Source: a virus. Taken from it: a stretch of DNA of 40,359 bases. The stretch is from positions 1 through 40,359 of IMG/VR virus record IMGVR_UViG_3300025108_000133; one strand, 5' to 3'. The position numbers and the translations under genes are program-made. The notes beneath the pieces are model-generated. The model made no database searches. It saw only the letters and a program-made list of their open reading frames with translations, and was not told where the DNA came from. Below, piece by piece: positions 4,395 to 33,903 of the stretch. The stretch's first letter is position 1. Each line of letters begins with the position of its first letter.

Positions 4395-4567
4395 TATGAG
4401 TACCCCATAGACTTAGCCATCTTGGATTTCTTTTTGGCCTTATTCTTTTTGCTGTTTGGGAAGCCAGCCTTCATATTAGAATATGACTTGTCGCTAATAG
4501 TGCTTTCGCTTTTTGGTCGGCTCGTGCCAGCCTTTTTACGCTTGTTAATATTTTCGTATAAACTCAT
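4394..4567 (-). CDS. Small basic phage protein (57 aa)
   Basis: A 57-residue Lys-rich protein beginning MSLYENINKRKKAGTSRPK and ending K-M-A-K-S-M-G-Y-S. It fills the gap between the 60-residue and 89-residue genes exactly: its ATG overlaps the upstream stop (ATGA) and its stop overlaps the next start (TAATG). This spacing and its resemblance to small marine-phage proteins beginning M-S-L-Y-x-N-I-x-x-K-R-K make it convincing despite its size. It shares its terminal S/K-M-A-x-S-M-G-Y motif with the neighbour. Function is unknown; a strongly basic protein beside the terminase small subunit could bind DNA. Confidence 0.8.
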   Translation of the reverse strand: MSLYENINKRKKAGTSRPKSESTISDKSYSNMKAGFPNSKKNKAKKKSKMAKSMGYS

Positions 4568-4833
4568 GATAAATTACACCTCCATCGTTTTAATGCTGCG
4601 CCCTTTCGGGTTAGTTCGCCGTTCTTGCTTGTTGCGCCTCTCATTCCCGACATTCGAGCGCAGAAACTTTTTTTTCTTTTCTTTGCCTCGCCAGTTGGGT
4701 TCGCTTCAGTTACAGCGCGTTTTAAGTTAGACCCCGTTGCTTTGTTGTACTTGTCGCGCCCATCATCACTTAAACCAGCACCATCTTTTGTAGGGCGTTT
4801 CTCCCCTCTACCCACCGAAAGATTAACTGACAT
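4564..4833 (-). CDS. DUF6321-like small basic protein (89 aa)
   Basis: An 89-residue basic protein beginning MSVNLSVGRGEKRPTKDG. It contains G-L-S-D-D-G-R-D-K-Y-N-K-A-T-G-S-N-L, E-A-N-P-T-G-E-A-K-K-R-K and S-F-C-A-R-M-S-G-M-R-G, the order I associate with the DUF6321 family of marine phages and cyanophages. No enzymatic role is known. It may bind nucleic acid or a virion component given its charge, which is inference. A near-consensus promoter lies 30-60 bases upstream (4864-4892), so this gene probably heads a strongly transcribed segment leading into the fibres. Confidence 0.8.
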   Translation of the reverse strand: MSVNLSVGRGEKRPTKDGAGLSDDGRDKYNKATGSNLKRAVTEANPTGEAKKRKKSFCARMSGMRGATSKNGELTRKGAALKRWRCNLS

Positions 4834-4863
4834 TGTTTATCGTTTTCCGTTACTGTTGATTGC

Positions 4864-4892
4864 ATTATACAGCTGTTGGCAGCATCAATCAA
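4864..4892 (-). promoter_or_regulatory. Sigma70-type promoter (minus strand) before the DUF6321-like gene
   Basis: On the minus strand TTGATT (4892-4887) is followed by a 17-base spacer and a perfect TATAAT (4869-4864). Transcription would start near 4857, about 24 bases before the ATG at 4833. The -35 sits in the GTTGATTG motif that recurs in other intergenic regions. It would boost fibre and downstream late transcription within the terminase-led unit. Confidence 0.72.
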
Positions 4893-4909
4893 CGAAACAG
4901 AGCAAAAGT

Positions 4910-5515: not shown

Positions 5516-5616
5516 TCTGTTACCTTTTTCGCTTGACAGTATTGTATAATTTTTTGCATGGTTTGTCTATTGGTGTAGCTCTACATCAATCAACAGCACA
5601 AAAAGGATATATTATT
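5516..5616. promoter_or_regulatory. Divergent control region between terS and the plus-strand cassette
   Basis: A 101-base divergent gap. On the minus strand TAGACA, 17 bases and TACAAT form a plausible terS promoter. On the plus strand TATAAT at 5545-5550 is a candidate -10 for the cassette, without a convincing -35. It contains a perfect inverted repeat TGTAG-CT-CTACA (5574-5585), GTTTGTCTA (5561-5569), CAATCAAC (5587-5594) and, overlapping the terS start, GCCAATCTG. All four have relatives in the repressor/Cro region at 14390-14532, suggesting shared control. Confidence 0.5.
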
Positions 5617-5940
5617 ATGATAAAAAACGAAATGATAACACGCTATGAGGGCGACCAGTGGAATCGCTGGTTAGTCGTTCGAGAAGTGGACATTCAGAAA
5701 GTTGGCTTAAATAAAAACGACTTTAGCCATGATAGCCGCACAACTGTACTCCCTCGATGGGGCTCAGTGTTTGCGCTCGATCAAGACAAGGACTGCGAGA
5801 CATTCAGAAAAGCTTGCAAACAATCCAAAGTATTTTTGACAATACAGAATTACGCACAGTGTGACGGACTGCACCAGATCCGCGATTGGGCATCAATCGA
5901 GATACTGCAAGACCACGCGCAAAAGTTGAGGTGCATGTAA
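5617..5940 (+). CDS. Unknown protein, first gene of plus-strand cassette (107 aa)
   Basis: A 107-residue soluble protein from ATG at 5617, chosen because AAAGGAT lies 9 bases upstream; the open frame extends further 5' only without a ribosome binding site. It contains W-N-R-W-L-V-V-R-E-V-D, a basic/aromatic centre and three Cys (C-E-T-F-R-K-A-C, Y-A-Q-C-D-G). No family is recognised. It leads a set of four genes overlapping by 1-4 bases on the strand opposite to the late genes, so it may be early-expressed or an accessory (host-takeover or anti-defence) gene. That role is only contextual. Confidence 0.65.
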   Translation: MIKNEMITRYEGDQWNRWLVVREVDIQKVGLNKNDFSHDSRTTVLPRWGSVFALDQDKDCETFRKACKQSKVFLTIQNYAQCDGLHQIRDWASIEILQDHAQKLRCM

Positions 5941-8206: not shown

Positions 8207-8256
8207 ACTGCTTCCTCTTTGCAATGCTTGTCCGTATCCCCCAGCAAACATTACTA

Positions 8257-8462
8257 TTCCGCGCTTGCGGAAGTAATGTATAGGGGGTACGGGGGTTTAC
8301 TTCCGCTTCATTTCCGCCCATTTCCGCCAATTTCCTTATATTTTGATGCTTTTTCATTTCTTACTTCCGCTAATTTTTGCTGTTTTTGCTTCCACTTCCG
8401 CCATTATTAGGGTTTGACCCCGTTCATTTCCGCCTTGCGGAAGTGGCGGAAGTGGGGCGGAA
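8257..8462. repeat. Iteron-like TTCCGC/GCGGAA cluster, candidate replication origin
   Basis: Eleven copies of TTCCGC or its complement lie within 206 bases. TTCCGC is at 8257, 8301, 8312, 8322, 8365, 8396 and 8428. GCGGAA is at 8267, 8437, 8446 and 8457. Two opposed pairs form short palindromes (8257-8272 and 8428-8442). Several neighbours are spaced 9-11 bases, about one helical turn, as in iterons. An AT-rich stretch lies inside (8328-8390). The cluster fills most of the gap between 8206 and 8407 and overlaps the 3' end of the next gene, beside the primase-helicase module. Confidence 0.6.
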
Positions 8463-8700
8463 GTGATGAATCTGGACGTATTTTGGGTTTGGTTATTTCG
8501 TTGCTTTGTACGGTTGATTGATCGCACCACATATATATCTTGTTGCCGCTGACATTATCCGCGATGTAGTCGTAAAAGTCTTCTAGCTGGATCATTGCTT
8601 CGATGCATTGATCGTAGCTTTTAAGCCAGAAAGTTGTCGTAAGCTTTTCGCTATCGAGCGAGTAACCGAACACCAGCGCAGTGTAATAAACTAACATCAT
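8407..8700 (-). CDS. Unknown small protein (97 aa)
   Basis: A 97-residue protein from ATG 8700 (or ATG 8697), overlapping the stop of the upstream gene. Residues 1-65 look like a real domain (V-Y-Y-T-A-L-V-F-G-Y-S-L ... C-I-E-A-M-I-Q-L-E-D-F-Y-D-Y-I), similar in layout to small phage proteins that process a residue string such as L-x-x-F-x-x-C. The last 20 residues (H-F-R-H-F-R-K-A-E-M-N-G) are encoded by the iteron-like repeats and are probably constrained by DNA rather than protein function. No family is recognised. Confidence 0.6.
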   Translation of the reverse strand: MMLVYYTALVFGYSLDSEKLTTTFWLKSYDQCIEAMIQLEDFYDYIADNVSGNKIYMWCDQSTVQSNEITKPKIRPDSSLPPHFRHFRKAEMNGVKP

Positions 8701-12426: not shown

Positions 12427-13213
12427 TGTTCCAATAGAAACTGTCTGGGTTATGTGGTGTTGCTGCTATAAGCTCGTTGCTATCGGACGATAGACTTAAA
12501 AATGCCTCCATTTGTTGAACTGATTTTTTAAAGATTTTTAGATATTTCGCTGCATCGTCGTCGCTGAGTTCTAACCAGACCCAAGGATCGCGCTGCCGCG
12601 TTAATGCGTAGCCAAACTTTACTGTTGGCTTTTTGCCCGTCATGCTTTTGACAGCTGCCTGATACACGGCTGCTTGTATTCCGTGACTAAGCGACCACTT
12701 TGTTGGCGCTTTCGAGGTTGTTTTCAGATCGACAACCAAATTCTTTTCTTCATAGTAATAATCGAGGTAGCCAAGAAGCGGCACAGTACCATCATCACCA
12801 GGACGAAACCGAACGTTAATACCAACGTTATGCTGCTTCTGATCTTTAGGTGGATCGTCTGGTCTACCCAGCGGCATCAGGTGTTCTAAGGCTGTTGCCG
12901 TCATACGCTCCACAATGGGAACGCGCTTTTCTAATTCTTCGGCTCGTTTAGGTAATGTGAGGCTATCATCTTTTAAATAACGCACTGCTTTCTTTACGCA
13001 GCCGTCTATATCCTCACCTTCGTAAAGCCCAAGGTCTACACCTCTCTCAACTGCTTTACCTTGCACGGCTGCAAACCCAGATGGAAACCGAACCTTACCT
13101 AAGTATCGAGCAACCCATACGTCAGGTGCTTCGCGGAAAGTATTTACATTGCTAACGCTGATACGCTTAATGTTATGTGTTACAAAGCCGTTTTGTCTGT
13201 CGTTGTCGGTCAT
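12392..13213 (-). CDS. PD-(D/E)XK superfamily nuclease (RecB/Cas4-like), 273 aa
   Basis: Residues are numbered from ATG 13213 (MTDNDRQNGFVTH), one base after the RuvC stop; the frame continues upstream but overlaps RuvC. Motif I is near A-A-V-Q-G-K-A-V-E-R-G (48-58). Motif II is G-Y-L-D (148-151). Motif III is V-V-D-L-K-T-T (160-166), the D-x-K core. Motif IV is Q-A-A-V-Y (180-184). This layout is the RecB-like/Cas4-like exonuclease family often used by phages for recombination or genome processing. It would digest DNA ends in the cytoplasm, working with the SSB-like protein and the resolvase. I see no separate annealase with certainty. Confidence 0.82.
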   Translation of the reverse strand: MTDNDRQNGFVTHNIKRISVSNVNTFREAPDVWVARYLGKVRFPSGFAAVQGKAVERGVDLGLYEGEDIDGCVKKAVRYLKDDSLTLPKRAEELEKRVPIVERMTATALEHLMPLGRPDDPPKDQKQHNVGINVRFRPGDDGTVPLLGYLDYYYEEKNLVVDLKTTSKAPTKWSLSHGIQAAVYQAAVKSMTGKKPTVKFGYALTRQRDPWVWLELSDDDAAKYLKIFKKSVQQMEAFLSLSSDSNELIAATPHNPDSFYWNNAEEIATQFFG

Positions 13214-13214
13214 A

Positions 13215-13682
13215 TCAATCAACACTTTCGACAAATGAAATGGCGTAATAAGCAAGTAAAGCTGCATCCGCACGGCCATCGTCTTTCTTTCGAGAGAACA
13301 AATGACTGTATTTAGGGAACAACTCGCAAGCGCGTTGACGATTAGCGTCTTTACCTTTTTGGCATTTTAACGCCTTCATCCATTGTTGCGGTGTTACTTG
13401 TGTGGTTTGCAGACCTAATCCGGCAGCTACGCCCAGTAAGACCCCGAAACCTTTTCCAAAATTAAACATTGATGTTACGCCTTGACCTGGCATTGCTGCG
13501 ACTTTCTCAATATACACGGGCGCTGCCGCCTCTTTTAATATGTCTACCACAAGATATGGGCTTATTGTTTTCTTTTTATTTACTTCGAGGATTGGCATAT
13601 CCCAAACATCGAGGGTAGCTTTGCTGGGATTATACCTGGCTATTGCTCCGCTGATGCCTGGGTCGATACCTATAACTGTCAC
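13215..13682 (-). CDS. RuvC-like Holliday junction resolvase (155 aa)
   Basis: A 155-residue RNase H-fold resolvase. It shows G-I-D-P-G (D7), Y-I-E-K-V (E59) and the C-terminal D-D-G-R-A-D-A (134-140), giving the four acidic metal ligands in RuvC order. P-G-Q-G-V-T-S-M-F and G-F-G-V-L-L-G are typical of the family. It would cleave four-way junctions before packaging or during recombination. The start is GTG at 13682, overlapping the previous stop as GTGA. It is immediately followed by the PD-(D/E)XK nuclease, forming a recombination pair. Confidence 0.88.
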   Translation of the reverse strand: MTVIGIDPGISGAIARYNPSKATLDVWDMPILEVNKKKTISPYLVVDILKEAAAPVYIEKVAAMPGQGVTSMFNFGKGFGVLLGVAAGLGLQTTQVTPQQWMKALKCQKGKDANRQRACELFPKYSHLFSRKKDDGRADAALLAYYAISFVESVD

Positions 13683-13966: not shown

Positions 13967-14163
13967 AGCACCTCACTCTCTACTGGCGGAGCTAAAGACG
14001 CGATTAAGCTACCCCAGCTGTTTCCAGAAAACCAATCACTTTGCGGACATCCGCGTCGAGACTGAAATTTAAAAATTGATATTACAAGATTTGTGGTATT
14101 AGCAAGATACCGATAAGTATAACTGCTAGACCAAAAATATAAATTACAAAAATTATGCATCAT
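13957..14163 (-). CDS. Doubtful 68-codon frame between Cro-like gene and operon
   Basis: An open minus-strand frame from ATG 14163 that overlaps the Cro-like stop by 11 bases and the next start by 10, with GGAGGAG upstream, so position favours a gene. Its composition, however, is Trp/Cys/Ser-rich and atypical. The next frame encodes a convincing hydrophobic helix (V-I-Y-I-F-G-L-A-V-I-L-I-G-I-L-L) and later S-L-D-A-D-V-R-K-V-I-G-F-L with purine-first codons, but lacks a start. A single-base slip in the TTTTT run after the second ATG codon would join the start to the membrane helix, giving a 26-residue peptide. Whether this is real, frameshifted or decayed is unresolved. Confidence 0.3.
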   Translation of the reverse strand: MMHNFCNLYFWSSSYTYRYLANTTNLVISIFKFQSRRGCPQSDWFSGNSWGSLIASLAPPVESEVLCH

Positions 14164-14389
14164 TATCTTTCTCCTCCGTTGCTACATAATCCAACAAGTC
14201 AAACCGTTGATTGTTGCCACGCGCTATGTACGCAAGCGTAAGCACACTATCTATCGGTATATTATTTCTGCGCACCCAGTTTCGTACTGCGTGTGCTGTT
14301 CTCGGATGGCCGACTTCTTTTAATGCTCGAGTAACTTTTTTTACGCCACCAAAGTGTAGAATGATTTTTTCCGCATCTATTGTCAACAT
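14153..14389 (-). CDS. Cro-like DNA-binding protein (78 aa)
   Basis: A 78-residue protein, first gene leftwards from the immunity region, divergent from the repressor. Residues 8-45 (I-L-H-F-G-G-V-K-K-V-T-R-A-L ... A-V-R-N-W-V-R-R-N-N-I-P) form a Cro-type helix-turn-helix: the G-G-V-x-x-V/L-A-x-A-L then W-x-R-R-x-x-I-P order is characteristic. The rest is a helix and an acidic tail. It would bind operators in 14390-14532, repress the repressor gene and favour lytic growth, by analogy with lambda Cro and YdaS-like proteins. The start is ATG 14389; the ribosome binding site is weak. Confidence 0.75.
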   Translation of the reverse strand: MLTIDAEKIILHFGGVKKVTRALKEVGHPRTAHAVRNWVRRNNIPIDSVLTLAYIARGNNQRFDLLDYVATEEKDNDA

Positions 14390-14409
14390 TTTCTATTTTG
14401 TCCGCCAAA

Positions 14410-14509
14410 GTTGATTGTAGTTTGTCTACATAAACATAGCCAAATTGGTAACGCAAGTGTAAAAAAATAAAAATTTTTGTTGCCAATCTGACAACATTGT
14501 GTCTATTTA
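14410..14509. promoter_or_regulatory. Immunity operator/promoter region
   Basis: The 143-base gap between the divergent Cro-like and repressor genes. Two related sites face each other: GCCAAATTGGTAAC (14439-14452) and GTTGCCAATCTGAC (14479-14492). The second extends to an imperfect dyad TGTTGCC-AATCT-GACAACA. Rightward, TTGCCA (14480) and TATTTA (14504-14509) could be a repressor promoter; leftward, TTGCGT-17-TTATGT could serve the Cro-like gene, with each site overlapping a promoter. TGTAG-TTTGT-CTACA (14416-14430) and GTTGATTG (14410-14417) are also present. Confidence 0.55.
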
Positions 14510-14532
14510 GTATGCATCAACAGGGGAATGAA

Positions 14533-14940
14533 ATGGCTAAATCAATAATGACAAGAGGTCAACCTGGTGGCGAGGTAGACTACTCACAACGCATATTAAC
14601 ACGCGCTGAATTTGGCAAAAGGCTATATTCTTATATGCTTAAGAAGGGCTGGAATCAATCCACGATGGCTAGAGAAGTTGGTTTGGGCAGAGATAGCATT
14701 AGCCAATATGTACGGGGACGATCTATTCCAAATCCGATTAACTTGGACAAATTGGCAAAGGCACTTAACGTCGAGGCAGACGTTTTGTTCCCAAACTATG
14801 ACGCGCAGAGTAATGCGGTAGAAGAACCGACGCTGGAAATGAAATCTATCGACAATGATGCAGAAAATATGTGGCTGCGCATCAATATGAAAGTTGACGC
14901 TAAAAAAGCGTTAGAAGTATTTAAAATTTTAAAAGGTTAA
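14533..14940 (+). CDS. XRE-family repressor, CI-like (135 aa)
   Basis: A 135-residue protein from ATG 14533 (MAKSIMTRGQPGG), chosen because AGGGG lies about 8 bases upstream. Residues about 30-90 are an HTH_XRE domain: F-G-K-R-L-Y-S-Y-M-L-K-K-G-W-N-Q-S-T-M-A-R-E-V-G then S-I-S-Q-Y-V-R-G-R-S-I-P and L-D-K-L-A-K-A-L. The remaining C-terminus is short, with no LexA-type Ser/Lys peptidase residues evident, so induction by RecA-stimulated self-cleavage is unlikely. It probably maintains lysogeny by binding the divergent operators. It is followed 2 bases later by the excisionase-like gene, forming a lysogeny operon with integrase. Confidence 0.8.
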   Translation: MAKSIMTRGQPGGEVDYSQRILTRAEFGKRLYSYMLKKGWNQSTMAREVGLGRDSISQYVRGRSIPNPINLDKLAKALNVEADVLFPNYDAQSNAVEEPTLEMKSIDNDAENMWLRINMKVDAKKALEVFKILKG

Positions 14941-14942
14941 TT

Positions 14943-15242
14943 ATGGAACTGCTTACACAAAAGCAAGCAGCTGATTTACTTTGCGTGTCGATTCGTACAG
15001 TCGAACGATACAGACACAGCGGATTATTAAAATCTATTCAAATAAATAAACGAACAATAAGAATACCAAAATTAGCAGTGGAGAAACTGCTGGGAGAATT
15101 AACATGGCACAAGAGCCAAGACTTGAAAGATTTGAAAACAACAAATACTACATCATCTACAGAAGCCAAAACCGCAGCCAAAGAGTATCGACGAGGACGA
15201 CGGATTTATCAATCGCAACTGCACGGTTTCAAGGCTGGTTAG
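14943..15242 (+). CDS. Excisionase-like MerR/HTH_17 DNA-binding protein (99 aa)
   Basis: Residues 1-50 (MELLTQKQAADLLCVSIRTV, then R-Y-R-H-S-G-L-L-K and R-T-I-R-I-P-K-L-A-V-E-K-L-L) are a classic HTH_17 / excisionase winged helix: Q-K-Q-A-A-D-L-L-x-V-S-x-R-T-V-x-R. Residues 54-99 overlap the integrase in another frame and look like low-complexity by-product sequence (T-T-N-T-T-S-S-T). By family it would bend attachment DNA and direct excision or regulate integrase. The ATG follows the repressor stop by 2 bases. The long overlap (139 bases) with the integrase gene is unusual. Confidence 0.72.
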   Translation: MELLTQKQAADLLCVSIRTVERYRHSGLLKSIQINKRTIRIPKLAVEKLLGELTWHKSQDLKDLKTTNTTSSTEAKTAAKEYRRGRRIYQSQLHGFKAG

Positions 15243-16162
15243 AAGAAAGTAAAATAAACTTTACGGTTGAGAACGACCCTACTGTTGGTCGCTGTTTAGA
15301 TCTTTGGTTTAATGATTGGATTAAAGATCGAATGATAACTGAGAACCGTTACCATTCGATTATAAATAATTTAAAAAAATATTTTGATAATATGCCAGTT
15401 AGTTCGGTGCAGAGAAAACATTCTAAGAAATACATCGAACTTAGAGAAAACGGTTTGATTGGCCAATGCCCAGCGGCATCAGGAACAATACGAAACGAGT
15501 TGCAACGTCTTAGAGCTTGCTTTCGATTTATGGTTGAACGTGTAGAGCCTAAAGAACAGCGTCTTGACCAAGAGCTCATACCTTATGTCGAGTTGCCGCC
15601 GCCTAGCCCACCAAGGGATCGAGTTTTAGATGATGATGAAGTAAACTTACTTAGAGAAGTTTGTCCTGATCTTATCCTAAACGGGTCGGGTCGCAGACCA
15701 TCGAACCGAGTATCGAGGATCGGTAGGTTTATAATGTTAGCAATGGAGACAGCACAACGTAAAGCAGCAATACTTGATCTCACTTGGGATCGAGTAAACT
15801 TTGAGACGAACCGAATAGAGTTTAACGCAAAAGGACGGCAACAAACAAAAAAGAAACGCCCAACTGTAAGTATGAGCCCTCGATTACGCAAAACGTTGTT
15901 ACGAGCAAAAGAAGAAGCTATCAACGAGTATGTCCTTGATAAGAAGACCGACGTTTATGAGGCTGTTAAAAGTTTTGGCAAAAGTATTGGCATTGACGAT
16001 TTAAACCCTCACGTTTTCCGCCATACCTGGGCAACAAGAGCAGTTATGCGTGGTGTAGATTTAACAAAAGTTGCTGCAATGCTGGGCGATAAAATAAAAA
16101 CTGTTGAGGATAATTACCAACACCTATCGCCGGATTACTTGGACGATGTGCATGAGGAATAG
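15104..16162 (+). CDS. int: Phage tyrosine integrase (352 aa)
   Basis: A tyrosine recombinase. Residues 1-50 resemble an arm-binding domain and 55-150 the core-binding SAM-like domain. Residues about 170-350 are catalytic: R219 (T-A-Q-R-K-A-A), lysine in the K-G-R-Q-Q-T-K-K-K beta hairpin, H303-x-x-R306 in H-V-F-R-H-T-W-A-T-R, and nucleophile Y338 in E-D-N-Y-Q-H-L-S. The usual third His (L-G-H) is L-G-D here. It would recombine attP, probably in the gap just downstream, with a host attB. The ATG at 15104 has GGGAG 7 bases upstream, which supports the start even though it lies inside the excisionase frame. Confidence 0.9.
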   Translation: MAQEPRLERFENNKYYIIYRSQNRSQRVSTRTTDLSIATARFQGWLEESKINFTVENDPTVGRCLDLWFNDWIKDRMITENRYHSIINNLKKYFDNMPVSSVQRKHSKKYIELRENGLIGQCPAASGTIRNELQRLRACFRFMVERVEPKEQRLDQELIPYVELPPPSPPRDRVLDDDEVNLLREVCPDLILNGSGRRPSNRVSRIGRFIMLAMETAQRKAAILDLTWDRVNFETNRIEFNAKGRQQTKKKRPTVSMSPRLRKTLLRAKEEAINEYVLDKKTDVYEAVKSFGKSIGIDDLNPHVFRHTWATRAVMRGVDLTKVAAMLGDKIKTVEDNYQHLSPDYLDDVHEE

Positions 16163-16498
16163 TCATTGTGGCTCAATTAATGGCGCAAAAAAAGTTTTGT
16201 TGATTGCTATTTATTATTTTATATCAATAATTTAACGGACATAACGATTAGTTCCGGGCCTACCAGATTATGACATGTTGATCGACAATCGACACCTTTA
16301 AAATAGACGTTTGGTTAAGTTGTCGATCACATTTTCCCGACATAAGCCGACATAAAACGGCGCAAAATGTGCCAATTGGCGCAAAATGCGCCGCTTACCT
16401 ATTGATCTACAAATCTCAAAAGTGTAACGTTTTCGTGAGGCCGGAAAGTTCGCAAGAACCTTTTTGTGCTAAAAAGATTTAAATTCTGGCCTCACCAA
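16163..16498. other. Repeat-rich intergenic region, candidate attP
   Basis: A 336-base non-coding gap between the convergent integrase and giant ejection genes. It contains CCGACATAA twice 10 bases apart (16337, 16347) with a relative at 16236. GGCGCAAAATG appears twice 19 bases apart (16359-16373 and 16378-16392), each near-palindromic, with a partial third copy at 16182. There is a perfect 10-bp inverted repeat TGATCGACAA / TTGTCGATCA (16279-16288, 16320-16329), GTTGATTG at 16199, and a structured element at the right. Such short direct and inverted repeats beside int fit arm- and core-type sites. The core crossover cannot be named without the host site. Confidence 0.5.
16435..16495. other. 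Branched stem-loop element (terminator or structured RNA)
   Basis: An outer perfect 8-bp stem GTGAGGCC (16435-16442) with GGCCTCAC (16488-16495) encloses two hairpins: GTTC-GCAA-GAAC (16448-16459, GNRA-type loop) and CTTTTT-GTGCT-AAAAAG (16460-16476), then a palindromic ATTTAAAT. On the plus strand the first hairpin is followed at once by CTTTTT, as in an intrinsic terminator for integrase transcripts. The 3' side reads ACCA after the stem, superficially tRNA-like, but no T-arm fits. Confidence 0.45.
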
Positions 16499-31800: not shown

Positions 31801-32853
31801 TTAAGAAATTTCGTAAACACCGTGGCAATTCAGCTGTGTTGCTGAAAGTGCTGCGGTAGTTGTAATCGCACGATACATAACGTACTGGTCAGCTGGTCTA
31901 GCTGGTGAGTGACGTTTCATCTTCTCGCCGTCCATGTAGTACATGCACAATTTTGAGGTATCGATGATGTAGCATCGCTTGCTTGGCGTTTTGCCAGAAA
32001 TGGTCAAATCGTCCATAGTAGGATCATAAGCAAAAGTAAGACCGTTATAGTTGATCTCACCCATACTAATGTCCTGATTTCTTGCAAAACCAGTGTTACT
32101 ATAGTTACCGTTTCTGCGTAGTTCGTCTGCAAGACGATCTAAGAAAGCAGAACCACAAACAGCAATGTTTGGTTTTCCGCCAAAACGCTTCAACTGACGC
32201 ATTTCTGAATGTAGAGTTTCAATCAACTCTTGCCCAGTAGCAGATGTTGTAATTGCTACATTTGCTCGGTTTCTCCACCAGGTATTAGATACTGTGGACA
32301 ATCCGCCAACTGTTGTACCAGAAGCTGTTGGATCATCGAGAACCAAAGTCTGAATACCAGCAATTGCATTTGCGTCGGCTGTACCATCGCCATAAAGAAA
32401 ATCATTCATGCCTCTAGAATAACCTTCCATCATATCGTCCAGCTTATCTTGAAAAAGATTAGCTAAGACTGTTTGATCGCGGCCTGAGTGATTGCTAACA
32501 CCAGCTGATGTTGTGCTTTCAGTAACGCTAATACCGTCCTTTTTAAGTTCGGTTAGTGTTAATGAAATACCAGCGTGATGCTCTTTCCATGCGTAGTTAG
32601 CACGTTTAATGTTTGCTGGATTTGCATAAGTCACTGTATCGTTATGCGTATATCCAGAAACGGTTGTTGTGTATGTGCCTTTAACACCTACACTGAGCTC
32701 GCCCTTCCCACCTGGAAAAGTTTTAGCACCTGAGTCCATTGCTTTTAACAATGGTTTGTCTTGTAAAGACTGCGAGTAGACATTGCCTTTATCGATGTAA
32801 TAATCGAGTGCGGCATTGGCTATGTTCGCAAGTTCGGCTGATGAAAAAGCCAT
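31801..32853 (-). CDS. Major capsid protein (350 aa)
   Basis: A 350-residue protein starting M-A-F-S-S-A-E-L-A-N-I-A-N-A-A-L. It includes D-K-P-L-L-K-A-M, H-S-E-M-R-Q-L-K-R-F-G-G-K-P, M-G-E-I-N-Y-N-G-L-T-F-A-Y-D-P-T and the C-terminal H-S-P-A-R-P-A-D-Q-Y-V-M-Y-R-A ... L-N-C-H-G-V-Y-E-I-S, which I recognise as a major capsid family of marine podo- and siphoviruses. It presumably adopts the HK97 fold. It follows the scaffold gene by 20 bases and shares its promoter. No N-terminal prohead protease site or capsid protease gene is evident, consistent with a separate scaffold. Confidence 0.85.
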   Translation of the reverse strand: MAFSSAELANIANAALDYYIDKGNVYSQSLQDKPLLKAMDSGAKTFPGGKGELSVGVKGTYTTTVSGYTHNDTVTYANPANIKRANYAWKEHHAGISLTLTELKKDGISVTESTTSAGVSNHSGRDQTVLANLFQDKLDDMMEGYSRGMNDFLYGDGTADANAIAGIQTLVLDDPTASGTTVGGLSTVSNTWWRNRANVAITTSATGQELIETLHSEMRQLKRFGGKPNIAVCGSAFLDRLADELRRNGNYSNTGFARNQDISMGEINYNGLTFAYDPTMDDLTISGKTPSKRCYIIDTSKLCMYYMDGEKMKRHSPARPADQYVMYRAITTTAALSATQLNCHGVYEIS

Positions 32854-32873: not shown

Positions 32874-33836
32874 TTAGGAGTTCCCCATTGCCGCTGCAAT
32901 CGCTTCCTGTAACGATTGTGGTTCGGGCGCTGGGCTACCTCCAAGTTTACCACCAGACGCAGTTTTCATAGAAGGTCGATTACCAAATTTAGCATTAAAT
33001 TTTTGGTTCACTTGGTCATAAGCACTTTGCGCCAATTGAATTGCTTCTTGTGGCGTTTGTGCGGTCTGTCCTCGTTCGGCAATCATCGATCTAACTCTTG
33101 CGTCAATTAAGTCTTCTTTGAGGTCATAATCAGGGTCGCTTGCTCGGGTGTTTTCTTCCCAATCAGTTACAGTTTCAGCTAAATAATTAATTTGCTGTTG
33201 CTGCACTTGTGCATTTTGTTGCTGCAACATCATCTCGTTCTGTTGCTTCTGCCTTGCGGCTTCTGCTCTAGCTCGAGACAATTCCCGTCCAGCATCTTCG
33301 TCCAAATAACCATCATCAACTCGGGTCTGAATGTCTTGTGGCATAACAATGCCAGCCGCTTGGGATAATTGCTGCACATAAGGTTTTAATGCTGTTAATG
33401 CTGCCATTGGGTCAGATTTCATTTTAACCATAATATCTAAACCAATTGCCGCTTCGTCACCTGACAAATTATTTGTTGCCAGATAATTTTGCATTACATC
33501 AAATTTCTGTGCGCTTTCCTTTGCTTCATTCCTTTGTTGAACAAGTTCTTTAAAACGAGGGTGCTTGTGAAACGGTAAATTAGAATAATCTTCTTCCTGA
33601 TCTGCAAACTCAACATCTGCATCACTTTCCGTAGATTCCGCTGCAACTTCATCCCTTTCTACTTCCTCACTCTCAGAGTGCGACTCTGGTTCTTCTTCGG
33701 GTTGAGCAGCGTCCTTAATGACACTAAGCAAATCCGCTTCAGTTTCGCTTTCAACGGGTGACGACTCCGCCTTTTCGTCCTCGATTATATCGTCGGCCTC
33801 GGTGGACGTTTCCGATTCCGTGGTTTCATCAACCAT
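32874..33836 (-). CDS. Scaffolding protein (320 aa)
   Basis: A 320-residue, very acidic N-terminal half (E-T-S-T-E-A-D-D-I-I-E-D-E-K-A-E) followed by a Gln-rich coiled coil (about 190-225: Q-K-Q-Q-N-E-M-M-L-Q-Q-Q-N-A-Q). The C-terminus (Q-S-L-Q-E-A-I-A-A-A-M-G) is short, helical and typical of the capsid-binding helix of scaffolds. It would guide procapsid assembly and then leave the head. It lies directly upstream of the capsid gene and downstream of the portal, the standard order. Confidence 0.85.
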   Translation of the reverse strand: MVDETTESETSTEADDIIEDEKAESSPVESETEADLLSVIKDAAQPEEEPESHSESEEVERDEVAAESTESDADVEFADQEEDYSNLPFHKHPRFKELVQQRNEAKESAQKFDVMQNYLATNNLSGDEAAIGLDIMVKMKSDPMAALTALKPYVQQLSQAAGIVMPQDIQTRVDDGYLDEDAGRELSRARAEAARQKQQNEMMLQQQNAQVQQQQINYLAETVTDWEENTRASDPDYDLKEDLIDARVRSMIAERGQTAQTPQEAIQLAQSAYDQVNQKFNAKFGNRPSMKTASGGKLGGSPAPEPQSLQEAIAAAMGNS

Positions 33837-33860: not shown

Positions 33861-33889
33861 ATTTTACCTCTGTTGATCGTAACAATCAA
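33861..33889 (-). promoter_or_regulatory. Sigma70-type promoter (minus strand) before scaffold/capsid
   Basis: On the minus strand TTGATT (33889-33884), a 17-base spacer and TAAAAT (33866-33861), starting transcription near 33854, about 18 bases before the scaffold ATG. The -35 is embedded in GTTGATTG, as at 4864-4892. The spacer includes ATCAACA, giving a perfect inverted repeat TGTTGAT-n7-ATCAACA (33871-33891), possibly a regulator site. It would boost scaffold and capsid expression inside the late unit. Confidence 0.68.
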
Positions 33890-33903
33890 CAAACAGCAAA
33901 AAA

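Follow-up and report, generated by a model that had tools for sequence, protein, structure and literature searches.

The window, by which we mean the whole 40,359-base virus record analysed here, belongs to a temperate phage. It encodes an integrase, an excisionase-like protein and a CI-like HTH_3 repressor, together with terminase subunits, a capsid protein matching SU10_MCP, a tail fibre, a lysin and a protein with a weak Cro-like match (Table 1). Its nearest relatives are IMG/VR viral contigs, and it is our reading of this set, which carries no such label, that the phage is marine. The closest named relatives found were Rhizobium phage RHph_N65 and Microcystis phage Mae-Yong1326-1, both of which have an integrase and an annotated repressor. 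The late genes of the window are transcribed leftward. In a relative with the late head and packaging genes on one contig (L007), the 4855/4886 pair of sites precedes terL in the reading direction, and on this ground we take P_late to be the promoter that heads the late operon.

Table 1. Genes, promoters and putative operator sites of the window
Feature	Position	Strand	Remark
Small basic protein, widespread in phages, first gene under P_late	4564..4833	-	
Third half-site (minus strand reads CAATCAAC), immediately past the -10 and close to the predicted transcription start	4855..4862	+	
P_late, late operon head; -35 TTGATT (4892-4887), 17 bases, -10 TATAAT (4869-4864)	4864..4893	-	conserved in relatives
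Putative operator dyad over P_late -35/spacer, CGTTGAT-N7-GCCAACA	4874..4894	-	
Dyad TGTTGAT-N8-AGCTACA, between terS-like gene and divergent gene 5617-5940	5574..5595	-	includes 5587
Cro-like small regulator	14153..14389	-	weak P22_Cro match, under curated cut-off
Dyad AGTTGAT-N8-GTCTACA, CI/Cro divergent region, overlapping the -10 of a weak Cro-direction promoter	14409..14430	+	includes 14410
Dyad TGTTGAT-N9-AATAGACA-type, with ATAGACA as right arm, immediately before the CI-like gene	14500..14522	-	
CI-like HTH_3 (XRE) repressor (135 aa), the protein that may read the sites	14533..14940	+	HTH_3 match
Excisionase-like HTH_17 protein	14943..15242	+	
Integrase	15104..16162	+	
Dyad TGTTGAT-N5-ATCGACA, region after integrase	16276..16294	+	
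Major capsid protein (SU10_MCP)	31801..32853	-	
Probable scaffold protein, first gene under P_scaf	32874..33836	-	function assigned from position and composition
P_scaf, before scaffold and major capsid genes; -35 TTGATT, 17 bases, -10 TAAAAT	33861..33890	-	conserved in relatives
Putative operator dyad TGTTGAT-N7-ATCAACA inside P_scaf, both arms perfect	33871..33891	-	

More than 500 relatives of the small basic protein were found among viral contigs. The region that follows the integrase (16163-16498), possibly attP, contains the inverted repeats TGATCGACAA/TTGTCGATCA and a long hairpin, GTGAGGCCGGAA...TTCTGGCCTCAC; no tRNA or Rfam element was matched in the window. The word ACTTCCG/CGGAAGT has 10 copies in the window, seven of which fall within 8268-8464, close to the primase/helicase (region 8252-8465), and is also among the top intergenic 7-mers of G007, G018, G023 and G028, with CGAAAGT in G020; the cluster looks like a set of origin iterons.

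A repeated word concentrated between genes

A sequence-only reading of this DNA had listed seven copies of one word, at 4855, 4886, 5587, 14410, 16199, 33883 and 13216, and had estimated that about one copy would arise by chance on both strands. All seven are exact matches at the positions given. On the whole, GTTGATTG/CAATCAAC is matched 12 times on the two strands against 1.41 expected, and none of 100 dinucleotide shuffles reached 12. It is also the most over-represented 8-mer of the window (12 versus 2.16 under an order-3 model). The five copies absent from the earlier list (8513, 14206, 23544, 32220 and 39380) all lie within genes. By our own gene map, six of the 12 copies are intergenic and fall in 1,710 bp, or 4.2% of the window DNA, the small share that had been claimed, in which 0.08 copies would be expected. 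A count by coding and non-coding class gave 3.5 copies per kb between genes versus 0.16 per kb within genes, densities that are far from equal; a cruder automatic ORF call, which lays spurious ORFs over real gaps, left only three of the 12 intergenic (p = 0.01). Within genes, seven copies were counted versus 2.13 expected, a number reached in one of 500 codon shuffles, where the copy at 13216 enters twice (two genes overlap there); the six distinct coding copies comprise two in the sense and four in the antisense direction relative to the gene that contains them. The coding copies thus exceed the codon shuffles, yet most are not conserved in relatives. Another word, AGTTTGTC, found at 14419 and elsewhere, has 10 copies versus 1.87 expected, nine of them in genes.

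We consider the repeated word very probably a regulator site. Three copies are clearly conserved: 4855, 4886 and 33883. The suggestion that the copies lacking a good -10 serve as regulator sites is supported at 5587 and 14410, each of which forms one arm of a dyad, and at 4855, where 11 of 14 aligned relatives keep the word without change. The copy at 16199 is a lone half-site near the 16276-16294 dyad with no clear second arm, and that at 13216 belongs to an N7 dyad (13204-13224) inside the RuvC/nuclease overlap that is without a good -10 and in which the word is exact in only four of 19 relatives. The further suggestion that these copies mark activator-dependent promoters found no support.

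The two structural promoters and the other dyads

P_late and P_scaf are of the sigma-70 type: their hexamers are 17 bases apart, within the 16-18 of that class, stand before a gene and are conserved. The earlier description of TTGATT followed by 17 bases and TATAAT or TAAAAT on the minus strand at 4886 and 33883 is correct, and the 4886 promoter scores 10 of 12 as such a promoter. That both are near-consensus promoters is supported by their conservation across diverged relatives. The full element GTTGAT-N9-CAACA-N3-GTAnAAT occurs exactly twice in the window, at P_late and at P_scaf, both times without mismatch; a count of two at three or fewer mismatches was equalled in one of 100 shuffles. 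The earlier reading had missed that the word is a half-site whose second arm lies in the promoter spacer. TGTTGAT is paired with ATCAACA seven bases on, and the dyad overlaps the -35 box and the spacer.

The same layout recurs in relatives. At the late head, L094, L096, L098 and L103 carry the perfect dyad GTTGATTG-N3-CAATCAAC, and in several relatives GTTGATTG-CTG-CAATCAAC is followed by TATAAT and then by a third CAATCAAC. In most relatives, with flanking proteins down to 54% identical, the gap before the scaffold gene contains TGTTGA, an arm such as CGATCAACA or GCGACAAACA, and a -10-like hexamer, as read in those loci whose flanking coding sequence allowed it; some more distant relatives (such as L039) are degenerate in the right arm of P_scaf. 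The spacer arm is conserved although sigma 70 needs no such arm, and therefore it is probably read by a regulator. A different palindrome, GTCGATCGAC with flanks, is present upstream of terS in L096, L093, L094 and L098 and may represent a second operator class.

The same type of site is found at several separate promoters of one phage, as in dispersed-operator systems of the P1 C1 type. The sequence of the 5574-5595 dyad is poorly conserved (exact in one of four relatives). The dyads were listed at a loose threshold with both strands counted, 19 of 80 rows being intergenic at the lower cut-off and eight of 16 at the higher, and the weaker ones could include chance pairs.

Spacing and dispersion across the phage group

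Scanning with a CI alignment yielded 80 viral loci, and of the 24 large CI-carrying contigs chosen from them, 21 also encode a portal; therefore the repressor and the structural module travel together. Contigs longer than 40 kb were covered including their tails, except for the G033 tail, and G006, G007 and G008 were covered over the first 40 kb only, plus the CI end of G008 (L216). G014, G027 and G035, without a portal match, were left out. Among the 31 genomes, 28 entered the spacing test (G010 lacks the portal end, and G023 and G024 have an inserted gene). In the portal-scaffold gap of these 28 phages, a TGTnnnn/nnnnACA pair is spaced by seven bases in 17 and by 17 bases in 11; the next-best spacing was seen four times and the largest count among 2,000 shuffles was five, although kinship of the phages inflates several of the group counts. 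Some gaps contain both kinds of pair. Between the two spacings lies roughly one turn of the helix. By eye and unscored, the right arm ends four bases (N7 type) or five bases (N17 type) before the -10, so that it would be the left arm that has moved by about one turn. The arms of P_scaf in Mae-Yong1326-1 are 16 bases apart, which is neither of the two spacings.

We rejected GTTGATTG itself as a group-wide word, since it was absent from the top words of the other genomes; what is common to the group is the geometry and the TGT start. When 7-mers were ranked de novo by intergenic excess, with the gap unused, TGTTGAT came first in the window, TGTAGGT in RHph_N65 and G021, TGTATGT in G016 and TGTCTGT in G017, and in many other genomes some other word ranked first. 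By its own annotation, RHph_N65 has 11 of 12 TGTAGGT copies between genes, including the CI/Cro region and the gaps before the endolysin and scaffold genes. With each phage's half-site picked by eye from the gap beforehand, as was also done for the two tests on CI described below, a phage's own half-site was 5.6-fold enriched between genes outside P_scaf (81 versus 14.3 expected; 27 phages, G034 being left out for having no clear half-site), whereas the half-sites of other phages were enriched 1.8-fold (190 versus 105.5). The own half-site ranked first of 12 in 14 of the 27 phages; with the P_scaf gap masked, no further intergenic copy of it was present in G006, G026, G017, G032 or G029. Many phages of the group thus disperse a version of the site that is their own. 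In Mae-Yong1326-1 (L189), TGTCCTG/CAGGACA occurs 89 times versus 26.7 expected, with 66 copies coding and 23 intergenic by annotation, which is much denser than an operator needs, and the word may not be a simple operator.

The candidate reader and its alternatives

The HTH_3 domain of the CI-like protein scored 49.8 bits against a cut-off of 23, and its gene lies near the integrase and opposite the Cro-like gene, as is usual for a CI/XRE repressor, the Cro-like match being below cut-off. Among the regulator-like genes of the window, our search detected no other both in the marine contigs and in the two named relatives. The recognition helix is formed by residues 53-60 in a structure model and aligns with the helix of the 434 repressor; the C-terminal part is a predicted beta hairpin and helix, and a domain search found no match to a peptidase domain in the protein. 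CI has relatives in bacterial genomes, the best matches coming largely from alphaproteobacteria, and an integrase match is also present at nine of the best 16 of these loci. A TerL search of genome contigs found no relatives.

We compared operators with CI sequences in 25 phages (G009 and G033 lack CI in the part covered). With the rest of CI held constant, the operator distance was correlated with the recognition-helix distance (partial r 0.24; 64 of 5,000 permutations), kinship being partly controlled, and the 11 best of 97 CI blocks in the correlation with operator distance start at residues 41-52, in the HTH. Every one of the 12 TGTTGA phages has G52, against two of the 13 others. By single-column mutual information, which is confounded by kinship, S105 and E97 ranked above G52, Q58 was tenth, and the helix was not singled out. 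G017 and G019 have a helix nearly identical to that of RHph_N65, yet carry TGTCTTG/TGTCTGG at P_scaf; G019 disperses TGTAGGT despite its different P_scaf half-site. In the 200 bases before CI, also in 25 phages, own half-sites numbered 12 versus 5.1 expected, a count reached in 19 of 5,000 label permutations; the CI/Cro region of G003/G010, whose CI is 75% identical, is without TGTTGAT. Taken from synteny and a moderate covariation with the HTH, the CI-like protein is a fairly likely binder of the sites.

We propose that GTTGATTG is one arm (TGTTGAT with its flank) of a dispersed operator, and that this operator is probably read by the CI-like repressor, which would shut the structural promoters in the prophage. 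At these promoters two arms would face each other at seven bases, the left containing the -35 and the right lying in the 17-bp spacer, and the less perfect dyads, which lie at the terS/early region, within the CI/Cro switch, ahead of the CI gene and next to the integrase, would be further operators. In the prophage, a CI-like HTH_3 dimer on the dyads would exclude RNA polymerase from both the late and the capsid promoter; once the repressor is lost, host RNA polymerase would use the near-consensus P_late and P_scaf directly. No gene for a phage RNA polymerase or phage sigma factor was met among the window proteins searched. The repeats, the geometry of the promoters, their conservation and the dispersion within single phages are observed; we infer that CI is the binder, that it would repress rather than activate, and where transcription would start. 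More tentatively, and with some doubt, the window may belong to a large group of temperate phages, from marine and soil bacteria, with a readable immunity code, in which a private half-site of TGT plus four variable bases would be read by variable CI positions near the helix (such as residues 52 and 58), CI would shut even the capsid promoter directly, and two dyad spacings (7 or 17) one turn apart would have evolved. If such a code were true, immunity groups would be predictable from sequence alone. The repeated word would lead to a map of the regulatory circuit for a group of phages met mainly in metagenomes, points to a protein to test, offers sequence rules for mutual immunity among phages, and suggests that a temperate phage may silence its structural operon at the promoter itself.

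The arrangement can be compared with known systems. In P1 a single repressor, C1, acts on operators scattered through the genome, 22 per P1 DNA (PMC8546580), and the window similarly has many putative dispersed operators and one candidate repressor; P1 operators, however, are asymmetric 17-mers, whereas the window sites are facing arms at a set spacing, and the likeness drawn here is one of site arrangement. In Cluster A mycobacteriophages (L5, Bxb1) the dispersed site differs from phage to phage, as the half-site does in the group of the window, and it has diverged in step with the repressor (PMC6550527); in contrast to the conserved promoter dyads of the window, their stoperators are 13-bp sites mostly outside promoters and in one main orientation. 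The SPBRE of SPbeta, a repeated intergenic element at several promoters, was found in silico, as was the present one, and later proved to be the site of the master repressor MrpR (PMC10516654); binding is predicted here, and the candidate is an HTH_3 protein whereas MrpR is a recombinase-derived repressor. The CI HTH domain matches the 434 and P22 C2 repressors by sequence and fold, but unlike them CI has the C-terminus described above. Dispersed repressor sites are already known in P1, mycobacteriophages and SPbeta. The words promoter and motif are absent from the main text of the Mae-Yong1326-1 paper, no paper was found by name for RHph_N65, and among titles and abstract openings on stoperators, dispersed or P1-type operators and alphaproteobacterial phage repressor operators, none describes the sites of this group.

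It is unlikely that the Cro-like protein is the reader instead, lowering the promoters in lytic growth, or that both proteins read the sites as in lambdoid switches. Its gene is syntenic in G003/G010, G004, G006 and G007, and a dyad is present within the promoter region of the gene itself; however, the gene was not found in RHph_N65 or Mae-Yong1326-1, two phages with repeated sites of this kind, and the protein's helix region is not the same in G006/G007/G004 as in the window, although the P_scaf half-sites there are still TGTTGA. We regard as equally improbable that a phage or host activator binds the sites and turns the structural promoters on late. In favour of an activator, late genes require timing in lytic growth and the right arm is just upstream of the -10, but each promoter has a good -35 and a good -10 box 17 bases apart, and the left arm over the -35 and the third arm at the predicted start suit occlusion. 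Nor would one shared host regulator explain a half-site that differs between phages. FNR-type boxes have the consensus TTGAT-N4-ATCAA; an FNR/FnrL box was rejected, with no match in the window at one mismatch or fewer.

Repression through the dyads is also to be set against plain sigma-70 promoters with similar -35 boxes, the remaining copies being chance. TTGATT resembles the -35 consensus TTGACA, but the conserved spacer and third arms, the spacing statistics and the intergenic excess make this very unlikely. Least probable of all are stoperators, coding and intergenic copies that would stop elongation as in mycobacteriophage L5: the excess of coding copies over codon shuffles would fit, but these copies lack a common orientation and are mostly not conserved, and unlike mycobacteriophage stoperators, which lie mostly outside promoters and are oriented with transcription, the conserved copies of the window are dyads in promoters.
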